Below, one piece after another: positions 2,598 through 52,334 of a stretch of 64,000 bases of DNA; position 1 is the first letter of the stretch, and the number at the start of each line of letters is the position of its first letter. This stretch comes from Terriglobia bacterium (lineage in GTDB: Bacteria; Acidobacteriota; Terriglobia; Acidiferrales; UBA7541): the NCBI GenBank assembly GCA_020072785.1, contig JAIQGG010000004.1:124001-188000 (forward strand), read 5' to 3'. Both the position numbers and the translations under genes were made by a program. Below the pieces are notes generated by a model. The model was not told where the DNA came from. It did not search any database and saw only the letters and a program-made list of their open reading frames with translations.

Positions 2598-2650
2598 TGC
2601 GAACTCTTCTGTCCCTCTCGCCGAGCCTTCCCGGCTCGCATCCTTCACTA

Positions 2651-2672
2651 GTGTGACCGCGAAGCGGTCAAC
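2651..2672 (-). repeat. Palindromic element, single unit between mrdA and rodA
   Basis: Perfect copy of the dispersed hairpin with core TGACCGCTTCGCGGTCA on the minus strand: 7 bp stem, TTC loop. It fills most of the 43 bp gap between the mrdA stop and the upstream rodA start candidate. On the minus strand it is followed 6-7 nt later by AAGGAT, as in other copies. Confidence 0.9.
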
Positions 2673-4718: not shown

Positions 4719-4725
4719 TCATTTC

Positions 4726-4773
4726 TGTGACCGCGAAGCGGTCAACTATTTCCGTGACCCCAAAGCGGTCCAC
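4726..4773 (-). repeat. Palindromic element, tandem pair upstream of mrdA
   Basis: Two units in the same direction with a 27 bp period. The unit at 4726-4746 is perfect; the one at 4753-4773 carries mismatches (GACCCC instead of GACCGC on the plus strand). On the minus strand the pair runs straight into the mrdA start, with GAGG in the position where other copies have AAGGAT. Confidence 0.9.
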
Positions 4774-4894
4774 TCGGCCCGGCCCACACTGGCCTTCTCG
4801 CGTCACACCCAAGTTTTCCACAGCGCGAGGCTCTCGAAACTCCCGTAGCACTCCGGCAAAGCTTCCGAACCGCCGCCCGGCCTTCCTTTGTCTG

Positions 4895-4942
4895 CGTGAC
4901 CCCGAAGCGGTCAACTGCAAGTGTGACCGCAAAGCGGTCAAC
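4895..4942 (-). repeat. Palindromic element, second tandem pair upstream of mrdA
   Basis: Two units, 4895-4915 (one stem mismatch) and 4921-4942 (AAA/TTT loop variant), again with a 27 bp period. On the minus strand the last unit is followed by AAAGGAAGG. Confidence 0.9.
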
Positions 4943-5228: not shown

Positions 5229-6158
5229 ATGCAACGCTTCATCTCCTCGGCCTTCTTCGCCGCCGTCTTCGGCACTGTCCTTGTTGCCGCTCTCCCCAGC
5301 CGCACCGTTGTTGCTGCCGGCGTTGACCGTTTCGCGGTCACAGAAATAGAGGACCAGGCCGTGCGACAAGCCGACCACGCTCTGCTCCAGGCCATCGCCA
5401 AGGGCGACAAACCCGCGGCCGACGCCCTGCTCGACGCAGATTTCACCTGGACGGACCACACCGGGAAAACCCGGACCAGGGCCGAGATCCTTCAGGATTT
5501 GCCGGCGCTCGCCGCGGAGAGCGACACGGATCTGCAAGTGCGCGATTATGATCAGGTCATCCTGGTTCGCGGCGCACACCGCATTTCCTCCCGGAATCTT
5601 GGCGTGCGTTTTGTGCGCGCCTGGGTCAAGCGGCCCGCGGGCTGGCGTGTCCTCGTCTATCAGGAAACCAAAATTGCCGAGCACGTCCCGGAGCACAGAC
5701 AGGGCTTCGGCTCCCCGAGCGGCGGCGCCCCGGTCGACTGCGACAATCCCTGCCAGACCGTCCCCTACAAACCGGAAGATCCGGCCGCGCGGGAAGTGGT
5801 CGCCATGTGGCAGGCCGTGGAGCGCAGCGTCCTGGATAATGACGTGGACGCCTGGATCCCCAATTTCACCGACGACTTTATTTTCGTCACCCCCGACGGC
5901 GGTCCGCCCCTCGACAAGGCCGACCGCATCGCCATGATCAAGGAGCTGAAGCGCACTTCGACCGTGCTGATCCCGCCCAAGGTGCAGTCCATGCAGGTGT
6001 GGCCTTTTGGCAATTCGGCGGTCATGCGCTCCGAACACCGGCCGCGCAGCGGCAAGACCCTCCACGTCACCCGCGTCTTCGTCAAGCGCGAAGGGCACTG
6101 GCAGATCGCCTTCGGCCAGCAGACCACGATGGAACCGTCCCCCAGCGCAAGCCAATAG
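5229..6158 (+). CDS. Secreted tandem NTF2-like (DUF4440/SnoaL-type) protein
   Basis: Unknown function. The ATG at 5229 follows GGAGGG 5 nt upstream and begins a signal peptide of about 30 residues ending near VVAAG. Two NTF2-like domains follow, each with the pattern of DUF4440/SnoaL proteins: residues about 45-150 (TWTDHTGKTRTRAEIL) and about 185-300 (FIFVTPDGGPPLDKADRI). Such folds bind small ligands or serve as enzyme scaffolds; no catalytic residues can be assigned. Directly after the signal peptide lies the in-frame peptide VDRFAVTEI, encoded by a copy of the palindromic element. A tandem pair of the element follows the stop by 35 bp. Confidence 0.8.
   Translation: MQRFISSAFFAAVFGTVLVAALPSRTVVAAGVDRFAVTEIEDQAVRQADHALLQAIAKGDKPAADALLDADFTWTDHTGKTRTRAEILQDLPALAAESDTDLQVRDYDQVILVRGAHRISSRNLGVRFVRAWVKRPAGWRVLVYQETKIAEHVPEHRQGFGSPSGGAPVDCDNPCQTVPYKPEDPAAREVVAMWQAVERSVLDNDVDAWIPNFTDDFIFVTPDGGPPLDKADRIAMIKELKRTSTVLIPPKVQSMQVWPFGNSAVMRSEHRPRSGKTLHVTRVFVKREGHWQIAFGQQTTMEPSPSASQ
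5322..5342 (+). repeat. Palindromic element inside a coding sequence
   Basis: In-frame copy (one G-T wobble in the stem) encoding VDRFAVT immediately downstream of the predicted signal peptide of the NTF2-like protein. It is followed by GAGGAC about 10 nt later. Confidence 0.88.
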
Positions 6159-6192: not shown

Positions 6193-6241
6193 GTTGACCG
6201 CTTCGCGGTCACACCGACAGTTGACCGCTTCGCGGTCACGC
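6193..6241 (+). repeat. Palindromic element, tandem pair after the NTF2-like gene
   Basis: Two perfect units, 6193-6214 and 6220-6241, with a 27 bp period, oriented toward the P-loop kinase gene 160 bp downstream. The following AAGGA-like box is poor here (CAGGCGA). Confidence 0.92.
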
Positions 6242-6379
6242 ATACAGGCGACGGTCTTTTCTTTCTTTCCCCCAGCGCTTCCGCCTGGCCCGAACCACGA
6301 GAAATCTCCGCGGTCTTAAGGCCGCGGCTGCAACTCAAGTGGCCGCGCGCCTTGCCGGACTGCCAACCGCCGCGTTATC

Positions 6380-30929: not shown

Positions 30930-31007
30930 GATGGGAACGAGGGCGGGAAAAAGATAACGCGGAGACGCGGAGAGCGCAGAGGAGTGCAGTGCGGAGGGGT
31001 CTCTACG

Positions 31008-31075
31008 GTGAAGTGCAGGAGTGGTATGCTCGCGCCGTGCGCAGGCGTCAAAAAGAGAAAAATCGGAAGGCCTGG
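31008..31075 (+). repeat. 68 bp direct repeat, copy A (promoter-like)
   Basis: Differs from copy B (32516-32583) at only three positions. Contains TGGTATGCT, an extended -10-like motif, followed by GTGCGCAGGCGTC and an A-rich run. Lies about 60 bp upstream of the secreted protein gene at 31134. Confidence 0.85.
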
Positions 31076-31133
31076 ACCACGCGCTTCCGATGACCTTCAC
31101 AGTGCGCTGACGCCGAGAGGATGGGACAAGCCA

Positions 31134-31688
31134 ATGATGAAAACTTCATCTATATGTTTTCTGGTCTTGCTTCTGGCTTTCACTGCTCGCGCGACAGGCC
31201 AAGCACCCACAACAGAATCAGTAGAGCGCCGCGCTTTGATTTTCCGGGCTCTTCCAGCAAAACACTTGTTTGCTCGGGGTGAAGATGTGGTTCTTGTCCT
31301 TTCAATACGCAACGAGTCGGCAGGTCCTGTATTTGTGAGTCGTTTGCTTCAGGATGAGTTTGTAGATTTCAAGGTATCTGGACCTGATGAAAAAGAAGTG
31401 GCCTGGCAAGGCAAGGGCAGAATTGACTCCAAGAGTTACTCTCCTTCGGGTTTCACGGTGCTAAAGCATGGAGAGAAGGTCAGCGCAAGAAGAACCATAT
31501 CATTGAAAAATGGACAAGGGTTTCTAATTGGCAAATCCGGTCAGTATTCTGTGACAGCGGAATACTCGCTGGAACCGCCAGAATATTTTGCGCCAATCGC
31601 GGGCAATGTGAAGATTCCGAATGGATCTTTTAGTTCTGTGAAGACCACTTTCTGCGTAGGTACGTGCGGCTCTGGTTCGCAGAAGTGA
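31134..31688 (+). CDS. Secreted protein of unknown function
   Basis: Not recognised. The ATG at 31134 (MMKTSSICFLVLLL) begins a signal peptide of about 22 residues ending ARATGQA. The mature part (about 160 residues) is predicted beta-rich, in the style of an immunoglobulin-like domain (GEDVVLVLSIRNESAGPVFV, GQYSVTAEYSLEPPEYF), with two cysteines near the C-terminus (CVGTC). Preceded by copy A of a 68 bp repeat that is also found before the secreted protein gene at 32605. Confidence 0.75.
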   Translation: MMKTSSICFLVLLLAFTARATGQAPTTESVERRALIFRALPAKHLFARGEDVVLVLSIRNESAGPVFVSRLLQDEFVDFKVSGPDEKEVAWQGKGRIDSKSYSPSGFTVLKHGEKVSARRTISLKNGQGFLIGKSGQYSVTAEYSLEPPEYFAPIAGNVKIPNGSFSSVKTTFCVGTCGSGSQK

Positions 31689-31782
31689 AAGCGAAACGCC
31701 CACTCGAGCTGGCCCGGCGCATGAGTATGCGGAGAGAATAAGCAACGTTTCGATCTCTTGGACATCGGACGAAGGAAAGAAC

Positions 31783-31805
31783 CCACCCTTTAAAACGAAG
31801 GGTGG
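31783..31805. terminator. Hairpin between convergent genes
   Basis: Perfect 8 bp stem CCACCCTT / AAGGGTGG with a 7 nt loop, between the stop of the secreted protein gene and the stop of the cytochrome c gene. Confidence 0.6.
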
Positions 31806-31841
31806 GGCACCCGCGCAAAGAGTGCGGCACCCAAGTTCGCG

Positions 31842-32333
31842 TCATTTCGTTAAGGGTGTGCCAGGCGTCACCGATTCTTTTTGCTGCAGAGAGGCCAGAT
31901 AGTCGCAGAGGTTCTTGATGCGCCGCTGCACGGCAACTTCGTTGTAGTGTTCGAGGTAGCCAAAGATAGGCCCCCACGTGGGCATATCCGGGGAGCCGTG
32001 CGCGGCGATGCGGATTCCGAAACGGAGGACGTTGGAGACGTAGTCGTACGGAAACCTGCCGCCATGCCGCTTGGCGAGAGTGGTCAGATCCGGCGGCGGT
32101 GTGTTGAGCGCGGGAGTGGCAGGGCCGTGGCCTTTGGCGTCGGCACCGTGACAGGCGGCGCAATATTCTTTGTACATTTGCCTGCCGGATGGCACATAGG
32201 TGGGAGGAAGCGGTATCTGATCCTCTTGTCTACTGGTGACCGCAGAGCGGCCGACGGCCGGCTTCTGTTGAGCGCCGGCGGCGCAGGCGACGAGAAGCAA
32301 AGCATTCAACAGAATGGTGTGGCGGATGCGCAT
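31842..32333 (-). CDS. Secreted monohaem cytochrome c
   Basis: Periplasmic class I c-type cytochrome, an electron carrier. Signal peptide at residues 1-21 (MRIRHTILLNALLLVACAAG), haem-binding CAACH near residue 59 and a probable axial Met in DMPTWG near residue 117. 163 residues, one haem. The sequence after the signal peptide contains VGRSAVTSR, which corresponds position by position to the VDRFAVT peptide of the palindromic element and is encoded by a decayed copy. The partner oxidoreductase is not adjacent. Confidence 0.9.
   Translation of the reverse strand: MRIRHTILLNALLLVACAAGAQQKPAVGRSAVTSRQEDQIPLPPTYVPSGRQMYKEYCAACHGADAKGHGPATPALNTPPPDLTTLAKRHGGRFPYDYVSNVLRFGIRIAAHGSPDMPTWGPIFGYLEHYNEVAVQRRIKNLCDYLASLQQKESVTPGTPLTK
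32235..32255 (-). repeat. Decayed palindromic element inside the cytochrome c gene
   Basis: Minus strand reads GTCGGCCGCTCTGCGGTCAC, 4 mismatches from the consensus, in the same frame (VGRSAVT) and at the same place (just after a signal peptide) as the copy at 5322. An AGAGGAT box follows. Confidence 0.6.
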
Positions 32334-32515
32334 AATCTCCTCCAGGCACTAGGAGCGGATTGGCAGAGAAGTGTTTTTTTCCGCGGAGCTCGCAACTTGG
32401 GAGACTATATCACGTTGCAAGTGAGTGAAGAGAAAGGGCACCCGAGCATCGGAGAACACCAAAATCCCTACCCTCGAAACCCGAGGGAGGGGTACCCTCG
32501 TTACAATACGTCGCA

Positions 32516-32583
32516 GTGAAGTGCAGAAGTGGTATGCTCTCGCCGTGCGCAGGCGTCAAAAAGAGAAAAATCGGAAGGCGTGG
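32516..32583 (+). repeat. 68 bp direct repeat, copy B (promoter-like)
   Basis: 65 of 68 positions equal copy A. Ends about 20 bp upstream of the secreted protein gene at 32605. Confidence 0.85.
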
Positions 32584-32604
32584 GCTACCCGCCTTGGGGA
32601 CAGC

Positions 32605-33582
32605 ATGAGAGGATTGCGCTGCGGTCTCCTTTTTCTTGCATTTGTCTTTTCCCCGGGGACATTTGCGCGACAGGCTAACCCGGTGGCAGATCCATGTCAG
32701 CGCACGTCGATTCCGCTTAGCTTCCCGCTAGGCGTAAATTTGAAGCTTGGGGTTGTCAATCATTTCCTCCAGTTCGTATCTGAGGTCGAAGGTGTCTTGT
32801 TTCTGCGAAACGACACCGGGGGCCAAATAAGAGGAATCACAATGCTTGTAATTTACCAGGACGAACAAGGGCACCGGCTCTTTACGATAACCTACCAAGC
32901 AAATGTCAAAGGAAATGGCAACTCTCATAGGAACATTCAACCTTTTTATGAAGGCAGGTTCACGAGGCCGGTAGAGCCAGGTGAGGTTTTTAATCTTTTA
33001 GGAACAAACCTTCAAATGACGACGAGAATTCCGACGAAAGCTGAGGTGTCGGTGATAGACATCCAGGTCGCCGATATGAATATCACCGTTGGGGGGGTTG
33101 GCACTTTCCAGTCAGACCCTATTCTCGAACAAGCACCGGCGGACTACTTCCAGCTAGCAACTTCGCCGGATAGCTTGCCTCACGACACTCTCATGAAACT
33201 GAGTATCAGCCCGAGGGGTACTGTCACAAATGTGGATTTTGCTTCGGAAACGGAACCGCGAGACCCGATTCTTACACCTGTGATGAATGAGCTACGGAGA
33301 TGGCGTTTTTCCCCCGCCATTCGCGATGGCTTTGGTATATCTTCCCACCTGTTCGTGCTTCTTCGCTTTCGCCGAACGGACGAACCTCCCGTGCTTGACT
33401 GCTTCATTGGACAGGGGGATAAGTATCCGACTACCTTCGTTATTGTGACGCTTGAGCCGGTCCCGAGTCTGAAGGGACGCTGGAGATTTTTCTACGACAA
33501 ATACCAAGTGAATGGATGGAAGGGCCCGTTCTTGGGCCAACAGATGTTCGAGAGTACTCCGTGGACCTCCAAACCTGAGTAA
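32605..33582 (+). CDS. Secreted protein with a TonB C-terminal-like domain
   Basis: Not assigned to a known family. The ATG at 32605 (MRGLRCGLLFLAFVF) begins a signal peptide of about 22 residues. The first half is beta-rich (LGVVNHFLQFVSEVEGVLFL, GGQIRGITMLVIYQDEQG). The region about 195-265 resembles the TonB C-terminal fold (LMKLSISPRGTVTNVDF, MNELRRWRFSPAIRDG) but has neither a membrane anchor nor a Pro-rich arm, so it would act free in the periplasm. The upstream extension to 32425 is rejected because it runs through repeat copy B. Confidence 0.72.
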   Translation: MRGLRCGLLFLAFVFSPGTFARQANPVADPCQRTSIPLSFPLGVNLKLGVVNHFLQFVSEVEGVLFLRNDTGGQIRGITMLVIYQDEQGHRLFTITYQANVKGNGNSHRNIQPFYEGRFTRPVEPGEVFNLLGTNLQMTTRIPTKAEVSVIDIQVADMNITVGGVGTFQSDPILEQAPADYFQLATSPDSLPHDTLMKLSISPRGTVTNVDFASETEPRDPILTPVMNELRRWRFSPAIRDGFGISSHLFVLLRFRRTDEPPVLDCFIGQGDKYPTTFVIVTLEPVPSLKGRWRFFYDKYQVNGWKGPFLGQQMFESTPWTSKPE

Positions 33583-33768
33583 GTACGTAATCCGTGTGGA
33601 GCGTAGTGCACCCCGCTAATTTAGACAATGAGAACCTCGTTTTTCGGTACAGATGTGAAAGCCAAGAACGCCTCCGCTCTTATCGAGGGGCACCCCGACC
33701 TTGCTTGATCACTAGGTCTGGGGCACCCACGCACGCTTGTTTCATTCCGCGGCACAGGGGGCGGCGGG

Positions 33769-33830
33769 GAAGTGCGGAAGTGGTATGCTCGCGCGAGCGC
33801 AGGGGTAAAAACGGAGGCGGAAGGGGCGGG
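33769..33830 (+). repeat. Divergent third copy of the promoter-like repeat
   Basis: Shares GAAGTGCGGAAGTGGTATGC and the following CG-rich and A-rich part with copies A and B, with several changes. It lies directly upstream of fhs. Confidence 0.6.
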
Positions 33831-40787: not shown

Positions 40788-40836
40788 GTTGACCGCTTTG
40801 CGGTCACACGCAAAGCTGACCGCTTTGCGGTCACAG
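40788..40836 (+). repeat. Palindromic element, tandem pair before the zinc-ribbon gene
   Basis: Two units, 40788-40809 and 40815-40836 (TTT loop variant), 27 bp period. The AAGGAT box that follows is the ribosome binding site of the gene at 40854. Confidence 0.92.
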
Positions 40837-40853
40837 ACAAAAAGGATACACGA

Positions 40854-50588: not shown

Positions 50589-52313
50589 CTACTTGGCCGG
50601 ATAGGGGTAGCCGCGGGCCAGCACCTGTTCCAAGGCAGCGTCGTAGCCGTAGAGGTCGTCGAAGAAGCGCGCTTCGCCGGTTTCCGTGACGACGGCTGTG
50701 GCATAGAAGATGAGCACCGGGATGGGGGTGGCCACGCGCACGTGCTGGTTATCCTTTGCTTGTGTGACCGCGAAGCGGTCAACTCCGCTCTGCATGGCGG
50801 CTTCCACCTTCTCCAGGTCCCAGCCGGGATTATGCCGCAGAACCCAGGCGGCGAGCAGCGCGGGATTTTCCACGCGGATGCAGCCGTGGCTGAAGTCGCG
50901 GCGCGCTTTGGAGAAAAGCTCCGTTGCCGGCGTGCCATGCAGGTAGACGTCGTAGGAATTGGGGAAGAGAATCTTGACCCCGTCGAGAGCGTTCTTGGGG
51001 CCGGGGCGCTGGCGGACCTCGAGCGTGCCGGCCTGCAGCTGGCGCAGGACGTCCGGGGTCAGCTCGCCGGTGACCAGCTCGCCGGCGTGGGTGACGACTT
51101 CAAAATCGTTCTTGACGAGGTAGGCGGGATCTTTTTCGAGGGCGGGAAGGATCTCGTCGCGCTGCAGGGAAAGCGGCACATTCCAGTAGGGGCGGAAGAC
51201 AACCTCACCGATGGAGTCGGCGAAGGCCGGGGTTTCATAGCCGTAGGCCTGGCCCACGACGACGTTCATGGAGAGGGCCACGCCGAGGTTCTCATCGAAG
51301 GCGCGCAAGCGATATTCGGGGATATTGACGACGACGGGAGGCTGGGCGAATTCGTGAGGGAGCCAGCGCAGGCGCTCGAGAGTGAGCTGGAACTGGCGGA
51401 TACGGCGCGCGAGCGGGGTATTGAGTTGGGCCAGGGTGTCCGGGCCGAGGAGGCCGTCGGGCTCCAGGCCATGGCGTTCCTGAAAGCGCTTGACGGCGAG
51501 CACCAGCGCGCCGCGGTAGATGCGCGTGCGCGGCGGGACGTGCGCTTCGAGGGGGAGATCGCCGAGCAGGCGCAGGAGCTGGGCCAGGCGCGGGAGGCCG
51601 GGATAGCGTGCGCCGGGGCGCACGGCGCGCGGGGGAACGGGCAGGAGTTCGCCGCTATCGTGCCGGGCCAGGGCGAGGTAGTGCTGCAAGGCCTGCTGGA
51701 TGCGGCGATAGACGGGGAACGGCGGCTCGACGCCGGCGAGGACGGCTTTCACACTGGTAGCGCGCACGACACGCTCGCGGACGAATTCGGAGAGGACGTA
51801 TTTCTTGTGCTCGATGTCAAAGCCGAAATGGAAATAACGCGGGTTGACCTTGCCGATGTGCAGGTCGGAGATGTAGCGCATGAGGCAGACAGTGACGGCG
51901 GCGTCGAAGCGTTCGAGATTGCCGGGGGTGGGCGATTGGCGCAGCTGCTCGATGCGCGCGGCCCAGCGCGGGCCGTCGTAGTCCTCGGTATTCAGCCCTT
52001 TGTCATCGGCGGAGCGGAAGACGTCGAAGAGGGCCAGGGCCTGGGGAGTGGGCGCGGCGTTCGCGGACCAGGCGAGGGCGTAATTTGTGGGGAGGTAGAA
52101 ATCGCGAAGCTCGGAGCGATAGTCGGAGAAATCGGGCCAGCGCAGATCGTCCAGCCGGCCGGTGGCGATGATGGCGCGCAGGGTGGCGCCGGGCCCGGCG
52201 AGTTGCGGCGGCGCGGGTTCCTGCCGTGCGGGCGGGGCTGCGCGTAAGGAGACGGGAGCCACAAGCGCCAGGGGGAGCAGGAAGAGCAGCGGCGCCTGCA
52301 GGCGATTGCGCAT
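50589..52313 (-). CDS. Secreted L,D-transpeptidase (YcbB-like)
   Basis: Periplasmic enzyme forming 3-3 cross-links in peptidoglycan. Signal peptide at residues 1-26, a scaffold domain (about 60-220), a peptidoglycan-binding motif (about 260-295, VKRFQERHGLEPDGLLGPDT), then the YkuD domain with the active-site motif SHGCIRVE near residue 495. ATG 52313 is chosen; GTG 52329-52331 is possible. Near residue 523 the conserved stretch between AAMQSG and KDNQHV is lengthened by VDRFAVTQA, encoded by a palindromic element. It starts 21 bp after pgi and is probably co-transcribed. Confidence 0.93.
   Translation of the reverse strand: MRNRLQAPLLFLLPLALVAPVSLRAAPPARQEPAPPQLAGPGATLRAIIATGRLDDLRWPDFSDYRSELRDFYLPTNYALAWSANAAPTPQALALFDVFRSADDKGLNTEDYDGPRWAARIEQLRQSPTPGNLERFDAAVTVCLMRYISDLHIGKVNPRYFHFGFDIEHKKYVLSEFVRERVVRATSVKAVLAGVEPPFPVYRRIQQALQHYLALARHDSGELLPVPPRAVRPGARYPGLPRLAQLLRLLGDLPLEAHVPPRTRIYRGALVLAVKRFQERHGLEPDGLLGPDTLAQLNTPLARRIRQFQLTLERLRWLPHEFAQPPVVVNIPEYRLRAFDENLGVALSMNVVVGQAYGYETPAFADSIGEVVFRPYWNVPLSLQRDEILPALEKDPAYLVKNDFEVVTHAGELVTGELTPDVLRQLQAGTLEVRQRPGPKNALDGVKILFPNSYDVYLHGTPATELFSKARRDFSHGCIRVENPALLAAWVLRHNPGWDLEKVEAAMQSGVDRFAVTQAKDNQHVRVATPIPVLIFYATAVVTETGEARFFDDLYGYDAALEQVLARGYPYPAK
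50761..50781 (-). repeat. Palindromic element inside the L,D-transpeptidase gene
   Basis: Perfect copy, encoding VDRFAVT in frame on the minus strand, in a surface loop of the catalytic domain's C-terminal part. AAAGGAT follows 9 nt later. Confidence 0.92.
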
Positions 52314-52334
52314 TCGCTGTGGCCGCCTCACGGG

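Follow-up and report, generated by a model that had tools for sequence, protein, structure and literature searches.

A 27-nucleotide palindromic element, dispersed in a soil acidobacterium and inserted in frame in an L,D-transpeptidase gene

Rickettsia palindromic elements are palindromic repeats that occur in frame within functional genes of unrelated kinds as well as in intergenic DNA (PMC10969869, PMC3733652), and PARCEL sequences are tandem palindromic DNA coding for peptides (PMC2996958). In REPINs, the replicating unit is an inverted doublet (PMC3116915). Members of the IS200/IS605 family leave no target duplication, have their target at one end only and carry a target-like terminal tetranucleotide at the other end (PMC6006769). 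Here we describe a 27-nt palindromic unit of a soil acidobacterium (G000, genome of 3.73 Mb), starting from a stretch of 64,000 nucleotides, hereafter the window, for which the original prediction proposed that a copy of a palindromic repeat lies inside an L,D-transpeptidase gene. The insertion in this gene is confirmed and involves the following features:

50589..52331, minus strand: host gene, a YcbB-like L,D-transpeptidase (Scaffold, PG_binding_1 and YkuD), assigned from its domains and PDB relatives
50757..50783, minus strand: 27-nt unit, GTTGACCGCTTCGCGGTCAC plus ACAAGCA, in phase 0, encoding VDRFAVTQA; delimited by comparison with the homologue L033, whose empty site lacks precisely 27 nt, with two units in the sister species G007
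50752..50756, minus strand: 3' target of the unit, AAGGA (RAKGW); GAGGA at this place in L033

The host protein has 580 amino acids and is related to solved YcbB L,D-transpeptidases. A perfect match to GTTGACCGCTTCGCGGTCAC occupies 50764-50783 on the minus strand; the repeat is indeed found at 50761-50781, where it had been placed, but that span is slightly short of the full unit with its 7-nt spacer. As predicted, VDRFAVTQA stands between AAMQSG and KDNQHV, and its nine residues correspond exactly to one 27-nt unit, with GTTGACCGCTTCGCGGTCACACAAGCA as the coding letters.

The unit consists of GTTGACCGCTTCGCGGTCAC followed by a 7-nt spacer, and the consensus over the G000 copies reads GTTGACCGC-TTC-GCGGTCAC and then a variable A-rich 7-mer. 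The 20-nt palindrome has a 3-nt loop and a perfect stem, with a DNA hairpin z-score of -4.65. Allowing up to three mismatches, GTTGACCGCTTCGCGGTCAC occurs 11 times in the window, compared with 0.01 expected from dinucleotide shuffles; about 310 copies are present in the genome, against one for the reversed control. Units are single or arranged head to tail, spaced by 27 in 31 of 32 neighbouring pairs in G000, with occasional spacings of 25-26 in G005 and G025. The palindrome arms show nine compensated double changes where about 1.6 are expected under independence, a count that is supportive only, because the units are not independent. Selection on the palindrome at the RNA level was tested through the single arm changes and rejected, G:T (36) showing no preference over A:C (30). 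Both observations point to pairing as DNA, not RNA. The other copies in the window are:

2646..2672, minus strand: single unit, intergenic
4720..4773, minus strand: two-unit array, intergenic; two units in G007
4889..4942, minus strand: two-unit array (window:4896), intergenic; one unit in G007, a 27-nt difference
5322..5348, plus strand: one unit that reads VDRFAVTEI in frame close to the N-terminal end of a DUF4440/SnoaL_2 protein (gene called at 5229-6158); the empty site of G007 lacks exactly these 27 nt
6193..6246, plus strand: two-unit array, intergenic
40788..40841, plus strand: two-unit array, intergenic

Separately, a direct repeat of 30-77 bp (GTGAAGTGCAGGAGTGGTATGCTCGC...) occurs in three copies at 31006-33794 of the window, spaced by 1508 and 1251 bp.

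At up to two mismatches, there are 276 copies in G000, 248 in G007 (Terriglobia MAG SRVP_26, by a 100% match of the contigs), 100 in G005, 0-15 in the other members of the genus and none in 25 genomes outside it. Only a few species of this single acidobacterial genus, of subdivision 2, reach a high copy number. Tandem copies in GTDB contigs belong to subdivision-2 acidobacteria and, in a different arrangement, to one Saprospiraceae contig; the pattern used in this search presupposes a 27-nt period, so that its matches carry no information on the period in other genomes. In the Saprospiraceae contig (L076:889-932), TGACCGCTCTGCGGTCA palindromes cluster in both orientations and seem to bear no relation to the acidobacterial unit. 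Viral contigs and plasmids gave no match to the element, and neither did Rfam, where only a tRNA was matched; the literature searched contained no mention of the palindrome sequence or of the peptide.

Insertion takes place at a defined target. Positions 28-32 after the last unit follow RAKGW, the G at position 31 being present in 62 of 68 arrays in G000 and 49 of 57 in G007, and the 5' flank shows no preference. Arrays of further subdivision-2 genomes are likewise followed by RAKGW-type targets, namely GAGGA in L066 and AATGT in L090 and L097. The target is not duplicated, the array flanks of G000 and G007 showing no clear excess of duplicated sequence. Twenty-three G000 arrays have orthologous sites in G007, and several of these differ by whole units, as clean presence or absence of 27, 54 or 81 nt:

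window:5322: one unit in G000, none in G007
L124:16748: two units in G000, none in G007; empty site CGCATC|AAGGAGAGCCCTTCATG
L135:11827: three units in G000, none in G007
L124:15033: one unit in G000, four in G007
transpeptidase site: one unit in G000, two in G007

At a few sites, the difference has another length, which is to be expected as intergenic DNA ages. At L124:16748, the target is already in the empty allele, as AAGGAG. The 5' end of the unit, GTTGA, loosely fits RAKGW, so that an existing copy is a possible target itself, which would explain the 27-bp arrays; identical spacers inside some arrays suggest slippage or unequal exchange as well. The idea that the length is tuned to a multiple of three was unsupported, as intergenic arrays keep 27 too. 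At one further G000 locus (L127:13846-13865), a unit adjoins a palindrome, GTTCCACGTGGAAC, that looks like a parS site of ParB; the G007 counterpart (L159) lacks the unit and has two GTTCCACGTGGAAC palindromes instead.

Taken together, the element is probably a small palindrome of subdivision-2 Acidobacteria that is mobile but non-autonomous, inserts exactly 5' of RAKGW and is carried as an in-frame passenger in genes. The alternative that survives best, although we consider it unlikely, is a REP of the GTAG/RAYT kind whose tag has drifted, moved by the Y1 enzymes of the genome (TnpA-REP) and forming arrays that are the usual REP clusters. In line with this notion, the palindrome is similar in size to the REP of S. 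maltophilia (23 nt, 8-bp stem, 3-nt loop; PMC8266576) and has the same kind of 3-nt loop and perfect stem, REPs inside genes have been described (PMC3733652), and Y1_Tnp genes are present, three in G000, at C1:420614, C1:581615 and C2:747449, and one in G007, at C59:61346. However, the GTAG or CGTC tag that marks the foot of the REP hairpin is absent (consensus GTTGACCGCTTCGCGGTCACACATACA), and the arrays run head to tail, without inverted doublets. Whereas a GTAG-type RAYT gene is flanked by its repeat, the element adjoins none of the genes at 13 Y1_Tnp loci of G000, G007 and G005, scanned with flanks of up to 1.5 kb. The closest clear copies, found in G000, lie at distances of about 1.3 and 1.5 kb, and no copies occur in the flanks of the remaining loci. 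Nor does the number of Y1 genes track copy number over the genus, as G034 has 15 Y1 matches and no copies.

Placement was analysed in 824 kb of G000, comprising stretches around copies and sample blocks, with a home-made gene finder (83% coding); since part of this sample was picked for having copies, its densities do not scale to the whole genome. The sample contains 96 arrays: 68 intergenic, 8 at gene edges and 20 inside genes. Fifteen of the intragenic arrays are sense and in frame, 14 of them in phase 0, and five are antisense, although some antisense or N-terminal cases may be errors of gene or start calling. Of the RA[GT]GA sites, 5.8% are used outside genes, compared with 0.6% of those in sense and 0.2% of those in antisense orientation; genic insertions are therefore mostly absent, presumably having been removed. 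Because 27 nt make nine codons and four of the six reading frames of the unit are free of stops, genic insertions add nonapeptides in frame: in the sampled part of the genome, exactly nine residues are added to the transpeptidase and to about a dozen other proteins. Among the host proteins are GyrB (N-terminus), an S15 peptidase (inside the domain), Asparaginase_2, YdjM, an MFS transporter, Peptidase_C26 and a TonB_C protein. The excess of phase 0 was considered as selection for the peptide and discarded, since the target explains most of it (RAKGA is in phase 0 at 71% of sense sites); a phase-1 insertion would create TGA. The TonB_C protein gene (L124:14394-16517) holds three separate in-frame arrays, of which the first has four units in G007 and the other two none. 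Elsewhere, at L075:6855-6898 (gp2 AA102), two tandem units seem to be translated in a different frame (LTALRS), close to the beginning of a signal-peptide-like stretch.

A second alternative, in which the palindrome is not mobile but is a protein-binding site or an RNA regulatory hairpin spread by selection, its arrays changing by slippage only, appears quite improbable. The strong intergenic bias would fit it, as would the 16 arrays located at most 25 nt upstream of start codons, yet the SD-like target accounts for this latter placement: of such targets, 7.1% are used, compared with 5.8% of all intergenic ones. Clean 0-versus-n sites in exact 27-nt multiples, in-frame copies in unrelated enzymes and the lack of an RNA-type G:T preference likewise argue against it.

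Regarding the transpeptidase itself, the window's sequence was aligned with 11 other homologous sequences (12 in total). The G007 protein, 92% identical, carries two units, that is 18 residues, at the identical position (VDRLAVTQT IDRGAATQT), and the ten further homologues (40-60% identity) have no extra residues there, lacking exactly the nine. The number of units thus varies between 0, 1 and 2 in the homologues, and a stretch of equal length is far from general at this place, the PDB YcbB chains also being gapped. In L033, the closest insert-free homologue at 60% identity, the empty site reads ATGCAGGGTGGA|GAGGATAATTTC, compared with ATGCAGAGCGGA|27 nt|AAGGATAACCAG here or, in short form, GGA|GAGGAT compared with GGA|27 nt|AAGGAT; as the difference is precisely 27 nt, the insertion is exact. 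The gap in the PDB chains falls about 30 residues past the catalytic cysteine motif SHGC and ahead of the PIPVLI strand; the insert sits in the turn between a helix and a strand, beyond the catalytic cysteine segment. The loop holding the nonapeptide is probably exposed, and the added residues may well be neutral. Between G000 and G007, the dN/dS of 0.24 indicates purifying selection, and the gene is therefore maintained with the insert. These results support the original view of a dispersed palindromic element that entered the gene in frame without destroying it. An ordinary loop of variable length, in which the repeat arose by chance, is hardly credible as an explanation of the nine residues and is ruled out by homologues without exactly the unit: loop length after the helix does vary by about one residue among homologues, but the difference here is 9 or 18 residues and the nucleotides perfectly copy a 300-copy repeat.

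For the mobile palindrome that we favor, the following model can be proposed. The 27-nt unit would enter directly 5' of RAKGW, leaving the target undoubled, and later copies would land on the GTTGA of earlier ones to give head-to-tail 27-bp arrays, which could also grow through slippage or unequal exchange. Genic insertions at tolerant places, such as the transpeptidase turn, would persist as neutral passengers. Our best guess is that movement proceeds through single-stranded DNA, with a Y1/HUH-type enzyme acting in trans that might now be lost, remote or unrecognised; since no enzyme is tied to the element, this single-strand mechanism is one that we infer. However, the bias of orientation relative to GC skew that lagging-strand insertion would predict is weak (Fisher p=0.024 overall, Spearman p=0.08), and the intergenic arrays alone give little sign of it.

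The exact 27-nt empty sites in the sister species offer a clear view of a REP-sized palindrome entering genes and fix both its ends and its target. The element supplies many natural nine-residue insertions in conserved enzymes, open to tests of their effect, and the lack of a cognate transposase beside it raises a sharp question on its mobilisation. We tentatively suggest that it could be among the smallest mobile DNA units known, a single hairpin of 27 nt that inserts as a monomer at an SD-like RAKGW, uses machinery distinct from RAYTs and repeatedly adds an identical nonapeptide to conserved enzymes.

The likeness to Rickettsia palindromic elements that had been proposed holds for the consequence, an in-frame palindrome in protein genes (here 15 sense arrays in 824 kb and the transpeptidase empty site), but not for the family. 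Those elements are described as about 150 bp, or near 100-150 bp for the Rickettsia families, some families corresponding to short CGTC REPs, whereas the present one is 27 bp, differs in sequence, inserts at RAKGW singly or in head-to-tail arrays, lies mostly between genes and belongs to a genus of another phylum. Tandem peptide-coding palindromes are shared with PARCEL, which forms 25-residue amphipathic repeat domains in unassigned ORFs, in contrast to nine-residue units found in conserved enzymes and mainly between genes. In IS608, a C lies next to the cut, whereas the most conserved target base of our unit is four bases from the junction. With IS200/IS605 ends, the unit has in common a hairpin, a one-sided short target, the lack of duplication and a target-like other end, its terminal tetranucleotide CAAC (complementary strand) resembling the target (CMTY); it differs in being a single 27-nt hairpin without an internal transposase gene. 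These mechanistic features also recall TnpA-REP (PMC8266576). DDE-type MITEs have terminal inverted repeats and target-site duplications, unlike this element with its unduplicated flanks. With REPs and REPINs it shares a palindrome of 20-40 nt, hundreds of copies and a mostly intergenic, sometimes intragenic location, but REPINs are inverted doublets, and here we find singles, direct 27-bp arrays and single-unit presence or absence. The element thus behaves like a Rickettsia palindromic element or an intragenic REP, departs from GTAG/CGTC REPs, REPINs and DDE MITEs in their defining features, and is best called REP-like.
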